Positions 13,273 through 37,230 of a DNA stretch of 40,300 nucleotides are shown here, one piece after another (positions within the stretch are counted from its first letter, which is position 1; each line of letters starts with the position of its first letter). The notes beneath the pieces were generated by a model. It ran no database searches, was not told the origin of the DNA, and saw only the letters and a program-made list of their open reading frames with translations. The position numbers and the translations under genes were made by a program. Location: NCBI GenBank assembly GCA_945917765.1, contig CAMEHU010000014.1, positions 1 through 40,300 on the forward strand, written 5' to 3'. Source of the stretch: an uncultured Lachnospiraceae bacterium. Its GTDB lineage: Bacteria > Bacillota > Clostridia > TANB77 > CAG-508.

Positions 13273-13328
13273 TGCACAATTGGGGACGCGTCCCAATTGT
13301 GCATTTTGCACATTTTGGGACATATCTT
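13273..13328 (+). repeat. Palindromic REP-like element, GGGACGCGTCCC family (copy 1)
   Basis: A near-perfect 31-bp palindrome (TGCACAATTGGGG, then ACGCGTCCC, then AATTGTGCA) is followed by TTTTGCACA and GGGACATATCTT. It starts eight bases after the stop of the giant gene. The same 56-bp element occurs at 32618, 33098 (reverse strand) and 35009. It may serve as the transcript 3' end, as no other terminator is visible here, but it lacks a clean T tract. Confidence 0.85.
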
Positions 13329-23913: not shown

Positions 23914-26900
23914 ATGGAAAGAAGAAATGTGAAAGGAAAAAGTTTAATTGTTGTCGCAGCAATTGCATTAGTAATGATGTTCGCATCAGTATTAATTAAG
24001 AATGCTTTTTTTGCAAAAAGAAGTATTGAAATTGCAAACAATGAACAACAAATTGAAGCAGCTGGCGGAAATAATGTATTAACTAGTGAGTTAGTCATTT
24101 CTCAAGCTTGCAAATTGCTAGGAACACCTTATGGTGGCGGATTGAATAGTGGAGTAAATGGTAAAGGTGTTACTGGTAATCCATGGAGTGGAAGTTATGG
24201 TAGTTTCAAAGAACCTAACGATATTAGAGGAATCGATTGTAGTGGATTGATTTATTGGTCTTTAGGAAGCTTAGGAGCTACTTCTAGTAACTTTTATCAA
24301 AATAATCCTATTCCAATGGATACTTTTGGATGGAAAGGTTGTGCTACTAGCCAAGGAAGAACTACATTAGTAAATTCAAAAGTTGATACTTCAAATTGGA
24401 AAATTAATTATAATGGAAAAGCTTATGCAGTAACAGCTTTAAAGAACCAAGATGTTATTGGAGATAATGGTTTAAGATATTATGAATATGGAGAAAAAGG
24501 TCAATATCTACCTGCAGGTGTTGTTATTATTTCTGCAGGAAATCAATTATCAGGTTTAATACTTCCAGATGGTTCAAGTGTTAGAACAAGAGATGACCAT
24601 GCTTGGTTAACTTTAGGATATTTAAATACTGATGATCCAAAAGAAGTTGCAAATTATTTAAAAACATTAGGTGTAGAAGAAAGTAAGCTTGTTGTTGGTT
24701 ATAGACAAGGAAATATTATTGTTGATGAACAAGGAAATGATATTACTTCTACAGCTACTGTTATAAAAGAAGGAGATTGTAAATACTGGAGAATAGAAGC
24801 AAAAGTTGGACAAGGTGTTATTGTAGATAACGGTGACCCTGATGCTGAAACTGTTACAGTAAATGGTGTTGGTAAGGCAATGGGACCAATCTATGCTTTC
24901 CACTTCACAGAAGAAGTAAAAGGTGATTACGTATTCTCAATCAACAAAACAGATGAAAATGGAAACATATTAGCATTAACTGCAGATACATTCAGAATCT
25001 ACAGAAATGACGAACTTCTTTCTAATAATGATTATATAATTTCAGGAAATAAAATTGTTATAACAAAAGATTTAACAAAAGTTTTTGAAGGTGCTAGTGA
25101 TAATTTTGTAGTAGAAGAAAATGTTGCACCTGAAGGATATGTAAAATATGAAAAAATAATTGCTTTTGATATAAAAACTGAATATAATCCAACATTAGGT
25201 AAAAAAGTTGGTGTTGTTGATCCAGATACTTTCTATATTAATGAAATAAAACAAAACTTTGTAAATGGTGAATATCAATTTGATGGTGGACAAATCCATT
25301 TAAATGATATTGATTTATCAGGAAATAAAACTGGAGATGTAAACTTAAAAGTTAAAAATAAAAAATTAGCTGGAAAATATGATTTAAGTATTTATAAAAC
25401 TGATGCTTCTGGAAAAGAGATGAATGGAGCTAAGTTTACAGTTAAATCAATTTCAAATAATTCAAATAATACTTTTGAAGGAAATTGGGAAACAAAAAAT
25501 CTTATTGAAAATGAATCATCATTTACATTAAAAGATAATGTAGAAATTAATTCAGTAGATACAAAAGATGTTTATGAAATTGTTGAAACACAAACACCTG
25601 CTGGATATATTGGATTAAACAAAAAAATAGTTTTATTAGTAGAAAAAGAAATTAAAGATAATAAATATGTAATTTCTAATGTAAAAGTATATGCTTTTGA
25701 TTCTAATGAAGAAGTTAGTGGAAGTGCTTTAGCAAATGATACAAATTTAATTGGAACAGCTAATAATTTTGGAACAGAAAATGAAAGAAAAGTTAATTAC
25801 GATGTTGATGGAAAAACATTTAATGTTGTTTTACCAGAAAGTGATAGCGTAAATTCTTCAATAAAAGTTTTTGTTCAAAATAAATTTGTAGATTTAGCAT
25901 TAAAGAAAACAATTACAAAAGTTGATAATATTGATGTAAGTAAAGCAAATAGTTTTAACACAGGAAGATTACTTTCTGAATTAGGAAATGCTGTAAGAGA
26001 TTTAACAGCAGAGGGTGTTGACCTTTCACCACTTGAAACTTCAACAAATGCTTCATATTATATGAATAAAAAACCTGTTGAAGTTGCAGCTGGACAAAAA
26101 ATTGAATATTCAATAAAAGTATTTAATGAAGGTCAAGTAAGAGCAAGAGCTAGCAAAATTGCAGATTATATTCCAAATGGATTAAAAGTAATTGGTGTTA
26201 AATATGATGATAGTGATTTAGTTGCTAATACTGATTATACTTATGATGAAGCAAAAGGTGTTTTAAATATCGATTTAACAAATAAAGGACAATTAACTTA
26301 TCCAAGAACAAATGGTAGAATTTTCTATGATGAAGTAATTGTAATATGTGAAGTTAAAGATAATGCAACAGGTGTTTTAACAAATGTTGCTGAAATAACA
26401 GAATATATGGATGAAAACGGAGTTATTGAAAAAGATATTGATTCTACACCAAATAACTGGAATGCTCCAAATAATGAAAGTAAATTAGAAAATACAAAAG
26501 ATAGTTCATCTTGGAGAGAATACAATACAAATCCAAATGCTGATGAATGGGATTATGACTATTTAGCACAAGATACAGGTTTAAATGGTAATAAAGGTGA
26601 TGACGATGACTTTGATAAAGTTATTGTTGCAAAAGATAAAAAATATACATTAACAATAAGAAAAATAAATGCTCAAAATGAAGAAGCAATTAATGATGTA
26701 TTATTTAATATTACTAAAACAGTTAACCATAATGATGGTACAGCTGAAGAAATATCAACTTTAAATAATGTTAACTTTGTTGATGAAAAAATTGTTCAAG
26801 ATGTTACATTTAATGAATTAAAATCTGGAAAAGTAACATATATTCTTGAAGAAGTTAAAAATGCGGATAACAAATACATTCAAATTGAAGGTAAAATCAA

Positions 26901-29900
26901 AGTAGACGTAGATATCGTACCAGGAAAAATAGACCATATTAGTGTATATTATGCTCAAAAAGATAGTGATAATTATACATTATTAACACCTTCTGGAGTT
27001 CGCCAAGGTGGTTGTGAATTAAAAATTGAAGGTGTAAATGTACAATTTGGAGTAACAAATGACAATGTTGTTGCTATAATTCCAAATAAAGTAATAACAA
27101 ATTCAAAATATGGATTAAGATTAAGAAAGATTTCATCAGGCAACAGAAGTGCATTAGCTGGAGTAGAATTTAGTGGAACAGAAAATAATTCTCAATTAAC
27201 ATTTGATGCTACTGATGCAAATGGTTATACAAATCAAATTACTAAAGATATAACATTAGATAATTATGAAACAACTGATAGTTATGTAATTAATGAAATT
27301 AATTTAGGTTCAAATCAAAATTATACAAAATTAAATAAAAGCATTAATGTTGATGTTAAAAAAGAATTAACAAAAACAGGTGAATTAAAATTAAAAGAAT
27401 TTGACATTTATGTTGATGGAAGTGAAATTACTTTAAAAGATACAAATGTATCTGATACAATTAATGTTACAGATGCTAATGGTATAAAATATACTATTGA
27501 AGCAAAAGTTGAAGCAATTAATGATATTAAAACATTAACATTAACTGTTCCAAATGCACCTGATACAACAGTTGGATTAAAATTAGTTAAAGTTAATAAA
27601 AATGATGAATCACCAATTGCAGGAACAGGATTTAGTATTTATAAATATGGAACAAGTTCATTAGTTTATAATGGTGAAACAGTTGCAACAACAGATGGAA
27701 TTCTTGTTGATGATAAAATTGAAGCTGGAACAAGAACAATTGAATATGAAATTTACGAAGATTATGCAGCAGCAGGATTTGTAAATACTTTAGCAGATAA
27801 AGTTTTAAAATTAACTGTTCAAGAAACAGATGGTGTTGTACAAAGTGCAGAAGTTAAAGTTTTAAATAAAGATGAAAACAGAACAGAAGCTGATGACCAA
27901 ACACTTGCAACTGCTACAGTTCAAGATGGTAGAGCTGTTGTAAAAATCGCAAACCCTCCAGTTGAGAAAGATGTTGACTTAGCTTTAAAGAAAGTTATTA
28001 CAAAAATAGATGGACATGAAGTTAAAGCAAATTCAACACATAGATTTGGTGAAATATATGAAAGAACAACAGAAGGAAAAATGAGAATTGATACTACTCC
28101 ATTACAAAATGGTGGTCATGATGCAGAATATTATTTAAATAAAACACCAATCTTAGTAGTAAGAGGAAGTAAAGTAACTTATGATATCAATATCTATAAC
28201 GAAGGTAAAGTTGATGCAACAGCAGGTGAAATTGTAGATTTCCTTCCAAATGATATGAAATTTGATAGAGTTCTTTATAAAGGACAAGAGTTAACAGCAG
28301 GAACAGATTATACTTATAATGAAAATACTAATACATTAAGAATTAAAGTATTAGCTAATAAAGAATTAATACCACATTATGATGCAACAGAAAATAAATT
28401 ACATAGCGAAACTGTAACTGTTGAATGTACTGTTAAAGATAGTGCAAAAAGTAACTATAATTTGACAAACATTGCAGAAATTACACAATATATTGCAAAA
28501 GATATAAATAATAATAGCAACAGTGTAATCGATACTGATATAGATTCAACAGCAGGTAACTGGAGTTATTTAACAGCACTTGATTATTATCATAAAAAAA
28601 TAACATCTGATGTTGCTGAAAGATATGATAGAAGTGGATTAAACTGGGCTAATTATATAGGTTTATTAGTAGGAGAAAGAACAAATACATTTGAAGAAGG
28701 CGTGTTCAAAAACTACTTAGGAGAAGAAGACGATGATGACTTCGAAAAAGTAAGAGTTATTGAAGTTGACTTAGCGTTAAAGAAAATTATTACACAAGTT
28801 GGAAATAAAACAGAAAATACATTTGGAGAAGGATTTACAAGATTCCAAGATGTAAATGGTGAAAGAGAAGTAAAAACAGATGTTAGAGCATTAACAAGAT
28901 TATCAGATGTTACAGATGCTGAATATTACTTAAATAAAACACCTATTACAGTAGCAATTGGAGATACAATTTCTTATCAAATAAGAATTTATAATGAAGG
29001 TTCAATTAACGCTACTGCAAGTGAAATTAAAGATTATATTCCTAAGGGATTAGAATTTGAAAGTATTTATTCAAGTGATGGAACTGAATTAACAACAGGA
29101 TTTGATTATAATAGAGCTACAAATGTATTAACAATTACATCATTAAAAGATAACTTTATAGAATATTATAAAGGAAATGCTAGTGAACAAGGTCAAATAC
29201 CACCAGAATATAACTATGTAACTGTAAAATGTAGAGTTACAGGTGCTGTTACAGGTGTATTAACAAATGTTGCTGAAATTTCTGAATATCAAACAGAATT
29301 TGGTACAACAACAAGAGATGTTGATTCACAAACAACAGGTGAAGGTGAATGGAAAGCTCCTGAAGGAACAAATAAAGAAACTTTAGAGGGAAAATCTAGT
29401 AAAGATTGGGCAGATTACTATGATGGAGTTGAAGAAGGTAAATTCAACAACTATCCAGGACAACAAGATGATGACGATTTTGAAAAAATCATGGTAATTG
29501 GTTATAGATTTAAAGTTAAAAAATTCAGTGATTGGGCTAGACGTGGATTATCAAATGTTACATTTAAAGTAAATGGACAAGAATATGTAACAGATGAAAA
29601 TGGTATAATTGATTTTGGATGGCAAGGAATGAATTCAGACAACACAGTTGCTGGAGAATATAATGTTGAAGAAATTAGTGCTGATGGATATGAAATGCTT
29701 GAAAGAGCAGTTTCATTAAAGTTAAAACAATCTATAGTTGAAGGTCAAACAGTTATATCTTCATATGAGTTAACTTTTGGTGAAGCTGAACCTTTTGAAA
29801 TAGCAGTTGACGGAAATCACCACAATTACATTAAATATATTGATATTACAAAAGGTCAATATATGGTTCTAAATATTGATAAAGACGAAAATGGATGTTA

Positions 29901-32562
29901 CGAAATTCAATTAGAATTTTCTAACAGACATAAAGATTTAGATTATGAATTATATATTAGAAAAGTAGATAGTTTACAATCAAACCAAGGAATTGGTGGA
30001 AGTAGATTTACTGTTGAATCATTTAAAATGAACAAAAAACAAGATGATTTAGTATGGAGACTTGGTATGAAGGAATCTTTTGAAACAAGAGATGACGGAT
30101 TAGTAAAAGTTTCAAAAACAAAATTAAATATACAAGATTTTATACTTGCAGGAAATAATGAAACATATGATATTTATAAAATAGAAGAAGCTGAAACTCC
30201 ATATAATTACTTCAAAATTGCAGATGATCAAGATATCTACTTAACTGTTAACAAAAAAGCAACAACTGATGAAAATGGAAATTATACAGGTATTAAAGTT
30301 GATAGTATTAAATTAACTTTAAATAGAGGTACAGAAGATGAAGTATCAACAGAAGCTGGTAAAACAGTTACATTGGAAAATGTAAAACTTGAAAAACAAA
30401 TCAAAACAGTTGATATTAAAGCACAATTAATTGAAGTTACAAATGATGAAACTGGTGAAGTAATGCCAACAATTATTGTAACAGTTCCAAATGTTAAGAA
30501 AGAATTTGACTTAAGTCTTCGTAAGCATATTATAGAAGATAAAGAAAAATTCAGTGTTAATAGATGGTCAATGCCACAAGTTAATGCAGAAGGAATCTTA
30601 AATGGTTCTGCTACAACAGCTATTTACAATAATGCTAAAGAACCAGCAATTGAAGTAGAGAGAAAAGATATAGTAAGATATGGTATTAGAGTTTACAACG
30701 AAGGCGAATTAGGTGGATATGCTGAAGTTGTAAAAGATGATATACCAGAAGGATTAGAAATGATTGCACCAGAATATGATGATAATGGAATGCCTTTAAA
30801 TACAAATGCTATGTACAGATGGGTAATGTTAGATAAAGATGGAAATGAAACAAATGACGTTACTAAAGCTGAATGCATTGTATCAGACTTCTTATCAAAA
30901 GCACATGGTGAAGAATTATTGCCAGAAGGTTCAATTCAAGAAAATCCATTCTATATGATAGCATTTGATACAAATACAATGACATCTCCAGTAAGTAGAG
31001 AGGTTCAAGTAGAATTTAAAGTAAAAGATACAGCTAAAGAGGGAGAGGTTATTATTAATAAAGCTCAAATTTCTAAACATTCAGATGAATTTGGTAACAC
31101 AAGTGATGATGGTGTTATAGATAGAGACTCAACTCCTGATGTTTGGGAACCAGCTCCAAGAGATGATGACCAAGATACTGAAAAAATAGTTGTATTAAGA
31201 GATAAAATCTATGATTTAGCATTAAGAAAATTCATCACTAAAGTAAATGGTGAAGAAATTGCTAATTCAAGAGAACCACAAGTTGATTGCAGAAACTTAG
31301 TTGCAGGCGGACATGATGCAGATTATTATCATACAAAAGATCCAGTACTTGTAAATCAAAATGATATAGTTGACTATACATTAAGAATTTACAATGAAGG
31401 TAAAGATGATGCTTATGCTGAAACAATCTATGACGATGTTCCTGCAGATACAGAGTTCGTACAACCATTATATGATGAAAATGGAAAACCATTAAACTTA
31501 AATGCTGAATATGGTTGGAGAATGTATAGAAAAGCTACAGAAGAAGAAATTAAAGAATTAGAAAATGTTGAAAGTAAAAATATTTTAGTATATGATGATG
31601 TAGTATATATCCCTACAGAAAAAGCTGAAGAAGCAGTTTTAGTTGCAACAGATTATTTATCAATGGGTAATGGTGCTGATAAAAACTTAATTAAAGCATT
31701 TAACCCAGCAATTGGCCAAATGACTGTTGAAAACTATAGAGATATTAAGTTACAATTTAAAGTTAAAGAACAAGAAAACATTTCAGAAGAAAAAATTATT
31801 ATCAACTATGCACAAATAGCTAAAATGCTAGGTGAGGGCGGTAACCCAGTTATAGATATCGACTCTACACCAGGTAAATGGATTGATACTGATGATGACC
31901 AAGATATTGAACAATTAAAATTAGGAAAATTTGACTTAGCTTTATATAAATGGGTAAGTACAGCTATAGTTACTGAAAATGGAAAAACAACACAATATGA
32001 AAGCGGACATAACCAAGCTGATAAAACTAACTTAGTAAACGTAAGTATTCCAAAGAATAGTTTAAATAAAGTATCAGTTAAGTTTAAATATCAACTTAAA
32101 GTTGAGAACCAAGGTTCAATTCCTGGAAAAGCATTAGAAATTAAAGATCATATTCCAGCTGGATTAAAATTTGTTGAAGAAGACAACAAGGAATTCAGAT
32201 GGGTTGCAGTTGATGATAAAACAATTGTAACAGACTACTTAAAAGATACTGAATTAAAACCAGGTAAAGCTACAGAGGTAACAGTTGTTTTAACATGGAT
32301 TAACGGTTCTGAAAACTTCGGAACAAAGGTTAACTATGCAGAGATTAGTAAAGATTACAATGATTTAGGATGGCCTGATATTGATTCAACACCAGATAAC
32401 TTTACTGGAAAACCACAAGAAGATGATGAAGATGAAGATGAAGTAAAATTGACAATTAGAACTGGTGTGCAAAGTGTGGTTTATGTGGTAATTGGAGTTG
32501 CTGTTATGGCAATCGTTGCTGGTGGAGTTTTAGGAATTAAGAAATTCGTTGTTAGTAAATAA
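23914..32562 (+). CDS. Giant surface protein: NlpC/P60-like domain, SpaA-like domains, six DUF11-like modules, C-terminal membrane anchor
   Basis: A 2,882-residue protein. An N-terminal hydrophobic segment (about residues 9-31) is an export signal or anchor. Residues about 57-245 resemble an NlpC/P60 cysteine peptidase/amidase: C109 in GIDCSGLIYW and H229 in DDHAWLTLG are the expected catalytic pair, with an unusually long spacing. SpaA/Cna-B-like domains follow near 335-430 and 488-600. Six DUF11-like modules begin with (V/F/Y)DL-(A/S)-L-x-K near 659, 1354, 1618, 2198, 2433 and 2673, with more SpaA-like domains between some of them. Most modules close with D-x-DS-T-P and then an Asp cluster (DDDDF or DDDQD near 895, 1606, 1851, 2416 and 2660; DDEDEDE near 2836). 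The C-terminus is a membrane helix (VVYVVIGVAVMAIVAGGVLG) ending KKFVVSK, with no LPXTG. It is likely a wall-spanning fimbria-like rod carrying a peptidoglycan-acting or thioester/amidase-like head (inference). Confidence 0.93.
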   Translation: MERRNVKGKSLIVVAAIALVMMFASVLIKNAFFAKRSIEIANNEQQIEAAGGNNVLTSELVISQACKLLGTPYGGGLNSGVNGKGVTGNPWSGSYGSFKEPNDIRGIDCSGLIYWSLGSLGATSSNFYQNNPIPMDTFGWKGCATSQGRTTLVNSKVDTSNWKINYNGKAYAVTALKNQDVIGDNGLRYYEYGEKGQYLPAGVVIISAGNQLSGLILPDGSSVRTRDDHAWLTLGYLNTDDPKEVANYLKTLGVEESKLVVGYRQGNIIVDEQGNDITSTATVIKEGDCKYWRIEAKVGQGVIVDNGDPDAETVTVNGVGKAMGPIYAFHFTEEVKGDYVFSINKTDENGNILALTADTFRIYRNDELLSNNDYIISGNKIVITKDLTKVFEGASDNFVVEENVAPEGYVKYEKIIAFDIKTEYNPTLGKKVGVVDPDTFYINEIKQNFVNGEYQFDGGQIHLNDIDLSGNKTGDVNLKVKNKKLAGKYDLSIYKTDASGKEMNGAKFTVKSISNNSNNTFEGNWETKNLIENESSFTLKDNVEINSVDTKDVYEIVETQTPAGYIGLNKKIVLLVEKEIKDNKYVISNVKVYAFDSNEEVSGSALANDTNLIGTANNFGTENERKVNYDVDGKTFNVVLPESDSVNSSIKVFVQNKFVDLALKKTITKVDNIDVSKANSFNTGRLLSELGNAVRDLTAEGVDLSPLETSTNASYYMNKKPVEVAAGQKIEYSIKVFNEGQVRARASKIADYIPNGLKVIGVKYDDSDLVANTDYTYDEAKGVLNIDLTNKGQLTYPRTNGRIFYDEVIVICEVKDNATGVLTNVAEITEYMDENGVIEKDIDSTPNNWNAPNNESKLENTKDSSSWREYNTNPNADEWDYDYLAQDTGLNGNKGDDDDFDKVIVAKDKKYTLTIRKINAQNEEAINDVLFNITKTVNHNDGTAEEISTLNNVNFVDEKIVQDVTFNELKSGKVTYILEEVKNADNKYIQIEGKIKVDVDIVPGKIDHISVYYAQKDSDNYTLLTPSGVRQGGCELKIEGVNVQFGVTNDNVVAIIPNKVITNSKYGLRLRKISSGNRSALAGVEFSGTENNSQLTFDATDANGYTNQITKDITLDNYETTDSYVINEINLGSNQNYTKLNKSINVDVKKELTKTGELKLKEFDIYVDGSEITLKDTNVSDTINVTDANGIKYTIEAKVEAINDIKTLTLTVPNAPDTTVGLKLVKVNKNDESPIAGTGFSIYKYGTSSLVYNGETVATTDGILVDDKIEAGTRTIEYEIYEDYAAAGFVNTLADKVLKLTVQETDGVVQSAEVKVLNKDENRTEADDQTLATATVQDGRAVVKIANPPVEKDVDLALKKVITKIDGHEVKANSTHRFGEIYERTTEGKMRIDTTPLQNGGHDAEYYLNKTPILVVRGSKVTYDINIYNEGKVDATAGEIVDFLPNDMKFDRVLYKGQELTAGTDYTYNENTNTLRIKVLANKELIPHYDATENKLHSETVTVECTVKDSAKSNYNLTNIAEITQYIAKDINNNSNSVIDTDIDSTAGNWSYLTALDYYHKKITSDVAERYDRSGLNWANYIGLLVGERTNTFEEGVFKNYLGEEDDDDFEKVRVIEVDLALKKIITQVGNKTENTFGEGFTRFQDVNGEREVKTDVRALTRLSDVTDAEYYLNKTPITVAIGDTISYQIRIYNEGSINATASEIKDYIPKGLEFESIYSSDGTELTTGFDYNRATNVLTITSLKDNFIEYYKGNASEQGQIPPEYNYVTVKCRVTGAVTGVLTNVAEISEYQTEFGTTTRDVDSQTTGEGEWKAPEGTNKETLEGKSSKDWADYYDGVEEGKFNNYPGQQDDDDFEKIMVIGYRFKVKKFSDWARRGLSNVTFKVNGQEYVTDENGIIDFGWQGMNSDNTVAGEYNVEEISADGYEMLERAVSLKLKQSIVEGQTVISSYELTFGEAEPFEIAVDGNHHNYIKYIDITKGQYMVLNIDKDENGCYEIQLEFSNRHKDLDYELYIRKVDSLQSNQGIGGSRFTVESFKMNKKQDDLVWRLGMKESFETRDDGLVKVSKTKLNIQDFILAGNNETYDIYKIEEAETPYNYFKIADDQDIYLTVNKKATTDENGNYTGIKVDSIKLTLNRGTEDEVSTEAGKTVTLENVKLEKQIKTVDIKAQLIEVTNDETGEVMPTIIVTVPNVKKEFDLSLRKHIIEDKEKFSVNRWSMPQVNAEGILNGSATTAIYNNAKEPAIEVERKDIVRYGIRVYNEGELGGYAEVVKDDIPEGLEMIAPEYDDNGMPLNTNAMYRWVMLDKDGNETNDVTKAECIVSDFLSKAHGEELLPEGSIQENPFYMIAFDTNTMTSPVSREVQVEFKVKDTAKEGEVIINKAQISKHSDEFGNTSDDGVIDRDSTPDVWEPAPRDDDQDTEKIVVLRDKIYDLALRKFITKVNGEEIANSREPQVDCRNLVAGGHDADYYHTKDPVLVNQNDIVDYTLRIYNEGKDDAYAETIYDDVPADTEFVQPLYDENGKPLNLNAEYGWRMYRKATEEEIKELENVESKNILVYDDVVYIPTEKAEEAVLVATDYLSMGNGADKNLIKAFNPAIGQMTVENYRDIKLQFKVKEQENISEEKIIINYAQIAKMLGEGGNPVIDIDSTPGKWIDTDDDQDIEQLKLGKFDLALYKWVSTAIVTENGKTTQYESGHNQADKTNLVNVSIPKNSLNKVSVKFKYQLKVENQGSIPGKALEIKDHIPAGLKFVEEDNKEFRWVAVDDKTIVTDYLKDTELKPGKATEVTVVLTWINGSENFGTKVNYAEISKDYNDLGWPDIDSTPDNFTGKPQEDDEDEDEVKLTIRTGVQSVVYVVIGVAVMAIVAGGVLGIKKFVVSK

Positions 32563-32617: not shown

Positions 32618-33153
32618 TGCACAGTTGGGGACGCGTCCCAGCTGTGCATTTTGCACAGTTTGGGACATATCTTTGCTTATACACTTTAAATATAGGCAAG
32701 CACAACCTTGTTTTTCATTATATTGTTTCATTAAAATATATCGATAATTGCTTTGGAATACTTTTAAAATGTTTTTTTGGGGGTGGTTGCCGAGAGAAAA
32801 AATAATAGAAAATTTAAGAATTTTGAAAACGTAATCTTCGGGGTATAACAGTTTCTAATGGTTGCACCCTTGAGCCTCTCCGCAGAGGGCACTTGCGCAC
32901 CCTCAAGAGGTGCAATGCATAAGAAACTGTAATACCCCTACGTTAACATTTTCAAAATTCTTAAATTTTTATTATTTTTTCTCCGAGGGGGTGTGGGGGA
33001 AACATTTTAAAAATATTTCAAAGTAATGGGGGGATTTTAATGAGACTTTATAATGAAAAACAAGGTTGTGCTTGCCTATATTTAAAGTGTATAAGCAAAG
33101 ATATGTCCCAAATTGTGCAAAATGCACAACTGGGACGCGTCCCCAACTGTGCA
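32618..33153. repeat. 536-bp inverted repeat with REP-element tips (MITE-like or giant hairpin)
   Basis: The outer 105 bases of each arm (32618-32722 and 33049-33153) are inverted copies with only two mismatches. Inner arm stretches still match, for example 6 differences over 36 bases around TTTTGAAAA...ACAGTTTCT. The core nests shorter stems: TTGCACC (32862-32868) with GGTGCAA (32909-32915), then CTTGAG with CTCAAG, then GCCTCT-CCGC-AGAGG. The tips are two copies of the 56-bp GGGACGCGTCCC element. Each arm could encode a similar 62-residue peptide, but this follows from the repeat and I do not call a gene. No transposase or clear target duplication is visible. It lies downstream of the giant gene ending at 32562 and may also end its transcript. 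Confidence 0.88.
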
Positions 33154-35008: not shown

Positions 35009-35064
35009 TGCACAGTTGGGGACGTGTCCCTATTGTGCATTTTGCACAATTGGGGACATATCTT
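35009..35064 (+). repeat. Palindromic REP-like element (copy at 35009)
   Basis: TGCACAGTTGGGGACG, then TGTCCC, ATTGTGCA, TTTTGCACA and GGGGACATATCTT. It begins at the base after the DUF4143 stop. The central ACGCGT has changed to ACGTGT, so this copy is slightly decayed. Its orientation relative to the upstream gene is the same as at 13273 and 32618. Confidence 0.85.
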
Positions 35065-37161: not shown

Positions 37162-37230
37162 TGAGACATTTGGGGACGGTCTTTATTTGTCTCATTTTTG
37201 AGACAAATAAAGACCGTCCCCAATGTCTCA
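37162..37230. terminator. Bidirectional hairpin terminator between convergent genes
   Basis: About 32 bp of stem (TGAGACATTTGGGGACGG and onward, pairing with CCGTCCCCAATGTCTCA) with one bulged T and a four-base loop. It lies between the methyltransferase and the minus-strand GH30 gene, and its last three bases are the GH30 stop codon. It contains the GGGACGG core of the hairpins at 23648 and 35079. Confidence 0.88.

Follow-up and report, generated by a model that had tools for sequence, protein, structure and literature searches.

A palindrome of 536 bases lies at positions 32618–33153 of the window, by which we mean the whole stretch of 40,300 nucleotides analysed, and it raises the question of whether so long a hairpin is a mobile element, a structured RNA or a chance arrangement of neighbouring repeats. 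It sits between the 3' end of a gene for a 2882-aa protein with SpaA and DUF11 domains (23914–32562) and a small ORF that is followed by a DUF4143 ATPase gene. The inverted repeat reported in the original prediction is real. Its arms (32618–32737 and 33034–33153) are 120 nt long and 96% complementary, and the folding energy of the whole feature is -328.8 kcal/mol, against -128.1 +/- 6.5 kcal/mol for shuffled sequences (z = -30.9), with none of 100 shuffles as good. The palindrome is far beyond chance. As had been claimed, the outermost 105 bases of the arms have exactly two mismatches, at 32642 and at 32658, and the inner arms, although diverged, still pair, as 32747–32774 with 33000–33027 and 32798–32860 with 32918–32980. 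The mismatches cluster in the core-proximal third of the arm, as would be expected had the outer part arisen later or undergone more recent correction. No transposase gene was found inside 32618–33153, in keeping with the original prediction. The possibility that arms copied the 3' coding end of an adjacent gene (L064) was dropped, since that gene ends before the palindrome. The 2882-aa protein encoded at 23914–32562 has a C-terminal hydrophobic segment in addition to its DUF11 and SpaA (prealbumin-like) domains and is likely a surface protein.

Searching the genome from which the window comes (G000) separated the palindrome into three layers of different origin. The outermost layer is a pair of inverted 56-nt REP caps, the left one at 32618–32673 on the forward strand (TGCACAGTTGGGGACGCGTCCC...GGGACATATCTT) and its inverted copy at 33098–33153 on the reverse strand. 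Next come the copy-specific middle arms, the left at 32674–32774 (forward) and the right, its complement, at 32999–33097 (reverse), for which no other occurrence was found in the genome. The innermost layer is a hairpin of ~200 nt, here called core 1 (32792–32988), bounded by the left and right termini of a shell that we call S1, GGTTGCCGAGAGAA at 32785–32798 and TTTCTCCGAGGGG at 32978–32990. Inside core 1, the two strands of an internal loop, CGTAATCTTCGG (32830–32841) and CCTACGTTAACA (32937–32948), are non-complementary and near-invariant in 31–34 copies, and an apical domain (32861–32915) holds short nested stems; core, termini, loop strands and apical domain are all given on the forward strand. 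Loop bases CGC and a downstream GCG in the apical domain, read by eye, co-change in most core copies, and a pseudoknot is possible there.

Core 1 is a repeat in its own right. It has nine copies in its own genome and about 25 more in five congeners (G005, G006, G009, G013 and G014), while the other genera sampled gave nothing beyond short chance-like matches. In GTDB r220 (84,980 species), a strict first DNA pattern for core 1 had no match and a looser one found 23 loci, confined to a handful of MAGs of gut Clostridia (rabbit, roe deer rumen and one other sample); no viral contig carried the core-1 pattern. Among 243 sampled genomes of the family, those with multiple copies of the terminal motif TTGCCGAGAGAA were essentially limited to one subclade of the genus. 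Rfam gave no credible family match at either gathering or permissive thresholds, which agrees with the earlier view that this is not a known RNA. Judged from these searches, core 1 is a previously undescribed repeated DNA hairpin limited to one small group of gut bacteria. Of the suggested new MITE family, the part that is supported is a new repeat family: the ~200-nt core recurs and its copy number suggests mobility, although no other full-length copy of the 536-bp unit was found in the window's own genome. The arms flanking the core differ by locus, being long and nearly perfect in many copies and ranging in length from none to >120 nt, and palindromes comparable to that of the window are present in independently assembled genomes.

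The caps belong to a 56-nt GGGACGCGTCCC repeat of the GGGAC type, of which the genome has tens of copies, and their identification as REP elements in the original prediction is corroborated by a RAYT-like Y1 transposase gene of the same genome, since the same repeat lies on both sides of it (REPs at C42:10521 and 11637, Y1_Tnp gene at C42:11011–11334). On contig C9, a Y1 gene lies between mirrored copies of another REP family (GGGACGGT). Both Y1 proteins hit NF047646, the NCBIfam model of REP-associated tyrosine transposases, with scores of 49 and 57 bits, which are below its cut-off of 80. The window element thus ends in two inverted REPs of one family, as a REPIN does, and that family is associated with a RAYT-like gene. 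The whole REP-spacer-REP unit is not multicopy in its own genome, where the middle arms are single; a comparable unit is multicopy in G014. Mirrored REPs end the arms of three of the nine core-1 copies in the window's genome (the window copy, L084 and L086) and of most G014 copies. The GGGAC-type cap is absent from most core-1 copies in G009, G013 and G006, so that a REP/RAYT system cannot be acting alone. The window-type REP has two more copies in the window, at 13273–13328 and 35009–35064, and positions 37170–37223 form a perfect 25-bp hairpin with a 4-nt loop (TTGGGGACGGTCTTTATTTGTCTCA), from a second, GGGACGGTC-type REP family. Repeats of the GGGACGGT type adjoin the Y1_Tnp genes of contigs C9 and C44 (L095 and L096), that is, Y1 genes besides that of C42, which suggests that a single genome holds at least two REP/RAYT pairs.

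The S1 termini, GTTGCCGAGAG...CTCCGAG, have the form of the terminal inverted repeats of a MITE and are not peculiar to core 1. They also enclose three other cores: core 2 in seven copies in G006 and one in G000, core 3 at three loci (L184, L247 and L329) and core 4 at two (L248 and L355). As a multicopy pattern, the left terminus is essentially confined to a genus subclade. Cores 3 and 4, which have the motif CTGGC...GCCAAACTGCGC in common, are abundant genus-wide (L316–L355), mostly in other shells (S2, S3 or REP-tipped arms, as sorted by a rough regular expression). The S2 shell ends in GACTACTCTAC and the S3 shell has the ends GTTACA...GGTGC...GCACC...TGTAAC. A class-wide scan for the core-3/4 motif found many copies in the window's own genome only; in viral contigs the loose core-3/4 pattern had too many matches to be specific. 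The complement of the S2 end contains two GTAG tetranucleotides, like the GTAG-tagged REPs. Since the S1 termini surround four cores and cores 3 and 4 also occur in other shells, the family is modular.

The cores also differ between species at three orthologous gene spacers. For example, the dnaK-dnaJ spacer carries core 1 in G000, G005 and G009, a remnant in G013 and core 2 in G006, all within the same arms of ~30 nt; in the remaining congeners, the spacer holds just small hairpins that are unrelated. At pheS-pheT, core 3 in G000 is matched by core 2 in G006, and the cores in the spacer of loci L085 and L121 are swapped between species likewise. Copies at orthologous positions such as dnaK-dnaJ represent residence rather than movement, and the dnaK-dnaJ spacers that lack the element have diverged too far for an empty site to be delimited and compared for a target duplication. 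It is possible, and we put it forward tentatively, that the outer shells (S1, S2, S3 and REP arms) and the inner cores (1–4) recombine freely, as a class of modular foldback element not described before, with hairpins nested in hairpins. Mobile hairpins might insert within the loops of other ones; alternatively, template switching or arm conversion might exchange cores at a given site. The conserved loops, being unpaired, would serve as a single-stranded recognition site. Some hairpin, of unrelated sequence, is found in the dnaK-dnaJ spacer of nearly every congener (L097–L109), which suggests that this spacer favours or needs one.

Alternatively, the hairpin could be co-transcribed with the gene upstream of it and act as a structured RNA, noncoding or cis-acting: a processing site, a stabiliser or a regulator. 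If pairing were selected in a single transcribed strand, G.U should be tolerated more readily than A.C. The covariance analysis of arm changes that the original prediction had called for found two or more Watson-Crick types at 31 of the 62 pairs of core 1, yet no G.U bias. Among the core cells, 1998 were Watson-Crick, 13 were G.U (in 9 columns) and 12 were A.C (in 11 columns); the arms had 25 G.T and 18 A.C among 1468 cells. By contrast, the stems of 29 tRNAs of the same genome, treated alike as a control, had 27 G.T and 3 A.C. Fisher tests against this control gave p = 0.002 for the core and 0.004 for the arms, values that are indicative only, as the cells share ancestry. The one-strand signature of an Rfam-type structured RNA is therefore lacking, and the near-equality of G.U and A.C argues against selection on one RNA strand and for repair of the palindrome at the DNA level, for example by template switching. 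Between the G014 copies compared, matched differences in both arms are about as many as differences in one arm. Taken at the level of sequence, the pairing looks to be maintained in DNA rather than as a functional RNA.

Several features speak for an RNA. The unpaired loops CGTAATCTTCGG/CCTACGTTAACA and a terminal CGA/CGA mismatch are conserved; homogenisation of the arms should erase unpaired loops, yet they persist, so they are probably recognised by something, whether an ssDNA-binding nuclease or transposase, or as RNA. The core points in the direction of transcription in 14 of the 17 spacers that are strictly co-directional (hand count), and copies have resided long between dnaK and dnaJ, pheS and pheT, and other genes. 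In Firmicutes most genes run with the replication fork, so that the orientation bias would fit lagging-strand insertion of a single strand as well as an RNA effect. The conserved loops and the bias may leave room for function. Against an RNA stand, besides the missing G.U excess and the missing Rfam match, the position of some copies behind the upstream gene's own intrinsic terminator and the change of core identity at one spacer between species. The structured RNA offered in the original prediction is thus weakened by the strand symmetry and still favoured by the non-complementary loops, and on balance we consider it unlikely.

The reading that we favour, with somewhat better than even confidence, is that the feature belongs to a non-autonomous foldback family restricted to the genus, as one copy set within a longer palindrome that an inverted REP closes at each end: a REPIN/MITE-like composite in which an unusually long hairpin is the spacer, spread as hairpin ssDNA and with arms kept by template switching. 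The likeliest agent of spread as folded ssDNA would be a RAYT or another Y1 transposase acting in trans; the mirrored REP caps at G014 copies, which resemble the REPs mirrored around the C9 Y1 gene, support this. Intrastrand fold-back template switching during replication would keep the arms complementary, and by copying changes and neighbouring sequence, REPs included, from arm to arm it could make the arms grow as well as repair them. The creation and correction of hairpin stems by template switching is a mechanism that has already been proposed (PMC8794818). Decay might proceed by internal deletion, as in L080, L081, L082 and the solitary left ends, and any effect on the host could be incidental or mild, such as a roadblock or an RNase III-type processing site in gene spacers.

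A classical MITE, in which the shell termini are terminal inverted repeats for a DDE transposase and the palindromic arms are incidental, would explain the copy number and why the termini GTTGCCGAGAG/CTCCGAG are common to four unrelated or distantly related interiors. It is a doubtful candidate, however, since homology and pairing often reach far past the termini, the elements seen with these ends in a non-exhaustive survey are short elements and end relics with no autonomous partner, and neither a target-site duplication nor a clean empty site was seen at the copies compared. An artefact of assembly or amplification, a fold-back chimera, might be suspected in a draft genome of 77 contigs (completeness 100, contamination 5.49) whose core-bearing relatives are MAGs, but it is very improbable, given that the arms differ at many positions and that similar palindromes occur in independently assembled genomes, also at the same orthologous spacer. 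REPs are abundant in the genome, but a chance head-to-head meeting of two of them around unrelated DNA, which the original prediction had named as its own undoing, is scarcely credible and is ruled out by inner homology, as the middle and inner arms pair too, the core recurs elsewhere and mirrored REP caps recur at other copies.

The feature is a real, well-defined, REPIN/MITE-like foldback repeat; it is not a product of chance, and it is not an RNA that is already known. BOX elements of streptococci resemble the window's family in having conserved ends and variable interior modules. The modules of the window's family differ in being nested hairpins, and the likeness drawn here is one of architecture. 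The ERIC, YPAL and NEMIS-type MITEs are, like it, intergenic, non-coding, long imperfect palindromes that are multicopy and often found at orthologous sites. The window's family is distinct in its interchangeable cores in common shells and its locus-specific extended arms. Reviews of such MITEs are PMC10969869 and PMC2229807. REPINs and BIMEs (PMC3116915, PMC2817692) consist of REPs paired in inverted orientation, which RAYT moves in trans. The window element is alike in its two inverted multicopy REPs flanking a palindromic spacer, in a genome with REP-flanked RAYT-like genes, but its spacer is a nested hairpin of ~420 nt holding an independently repeated element, its REPs are of the GGGAC type, and many core copies are without a GGGAC-type cap. 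In a REPtron, tnpA-REP is bordered by its own REPs (PMC8266576); the C42 and C9 Y1 genes likewise have REPs on both sides, whereas the window element has no gene between its REPs.

What is most novel in the feature is the shell/core modularity together with the strand-symmetry evidence. Through it, REP/RAYT biology is connected with far larger palindromes, and it supplies natural test material on the question of how near-perfect long inverted repeats are preserved. With many copies and fast-changing matched arms, the strand test (G.U against A.C) can separate template switching from RNA selection, and strong covariation alone is no proof of a functional RNA in a long palindrome.

Two minor observations concern the placement of copies. 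Solitary S1 left ends in G009 (L171, L180, L186, L187, L188, L214, L224 and L240) are often cut at a similar point, with the promoter of the next gene following; they were considered as ends of larger transposons, an idea that was dropped because ordinary genes come next. Core 1 repeatedly adjoins the 3' end of asparagine-synthase-type genes (protein starts MCGFVGF/MCGITGF) in several species (L065, L068, L070, L071 and L076).
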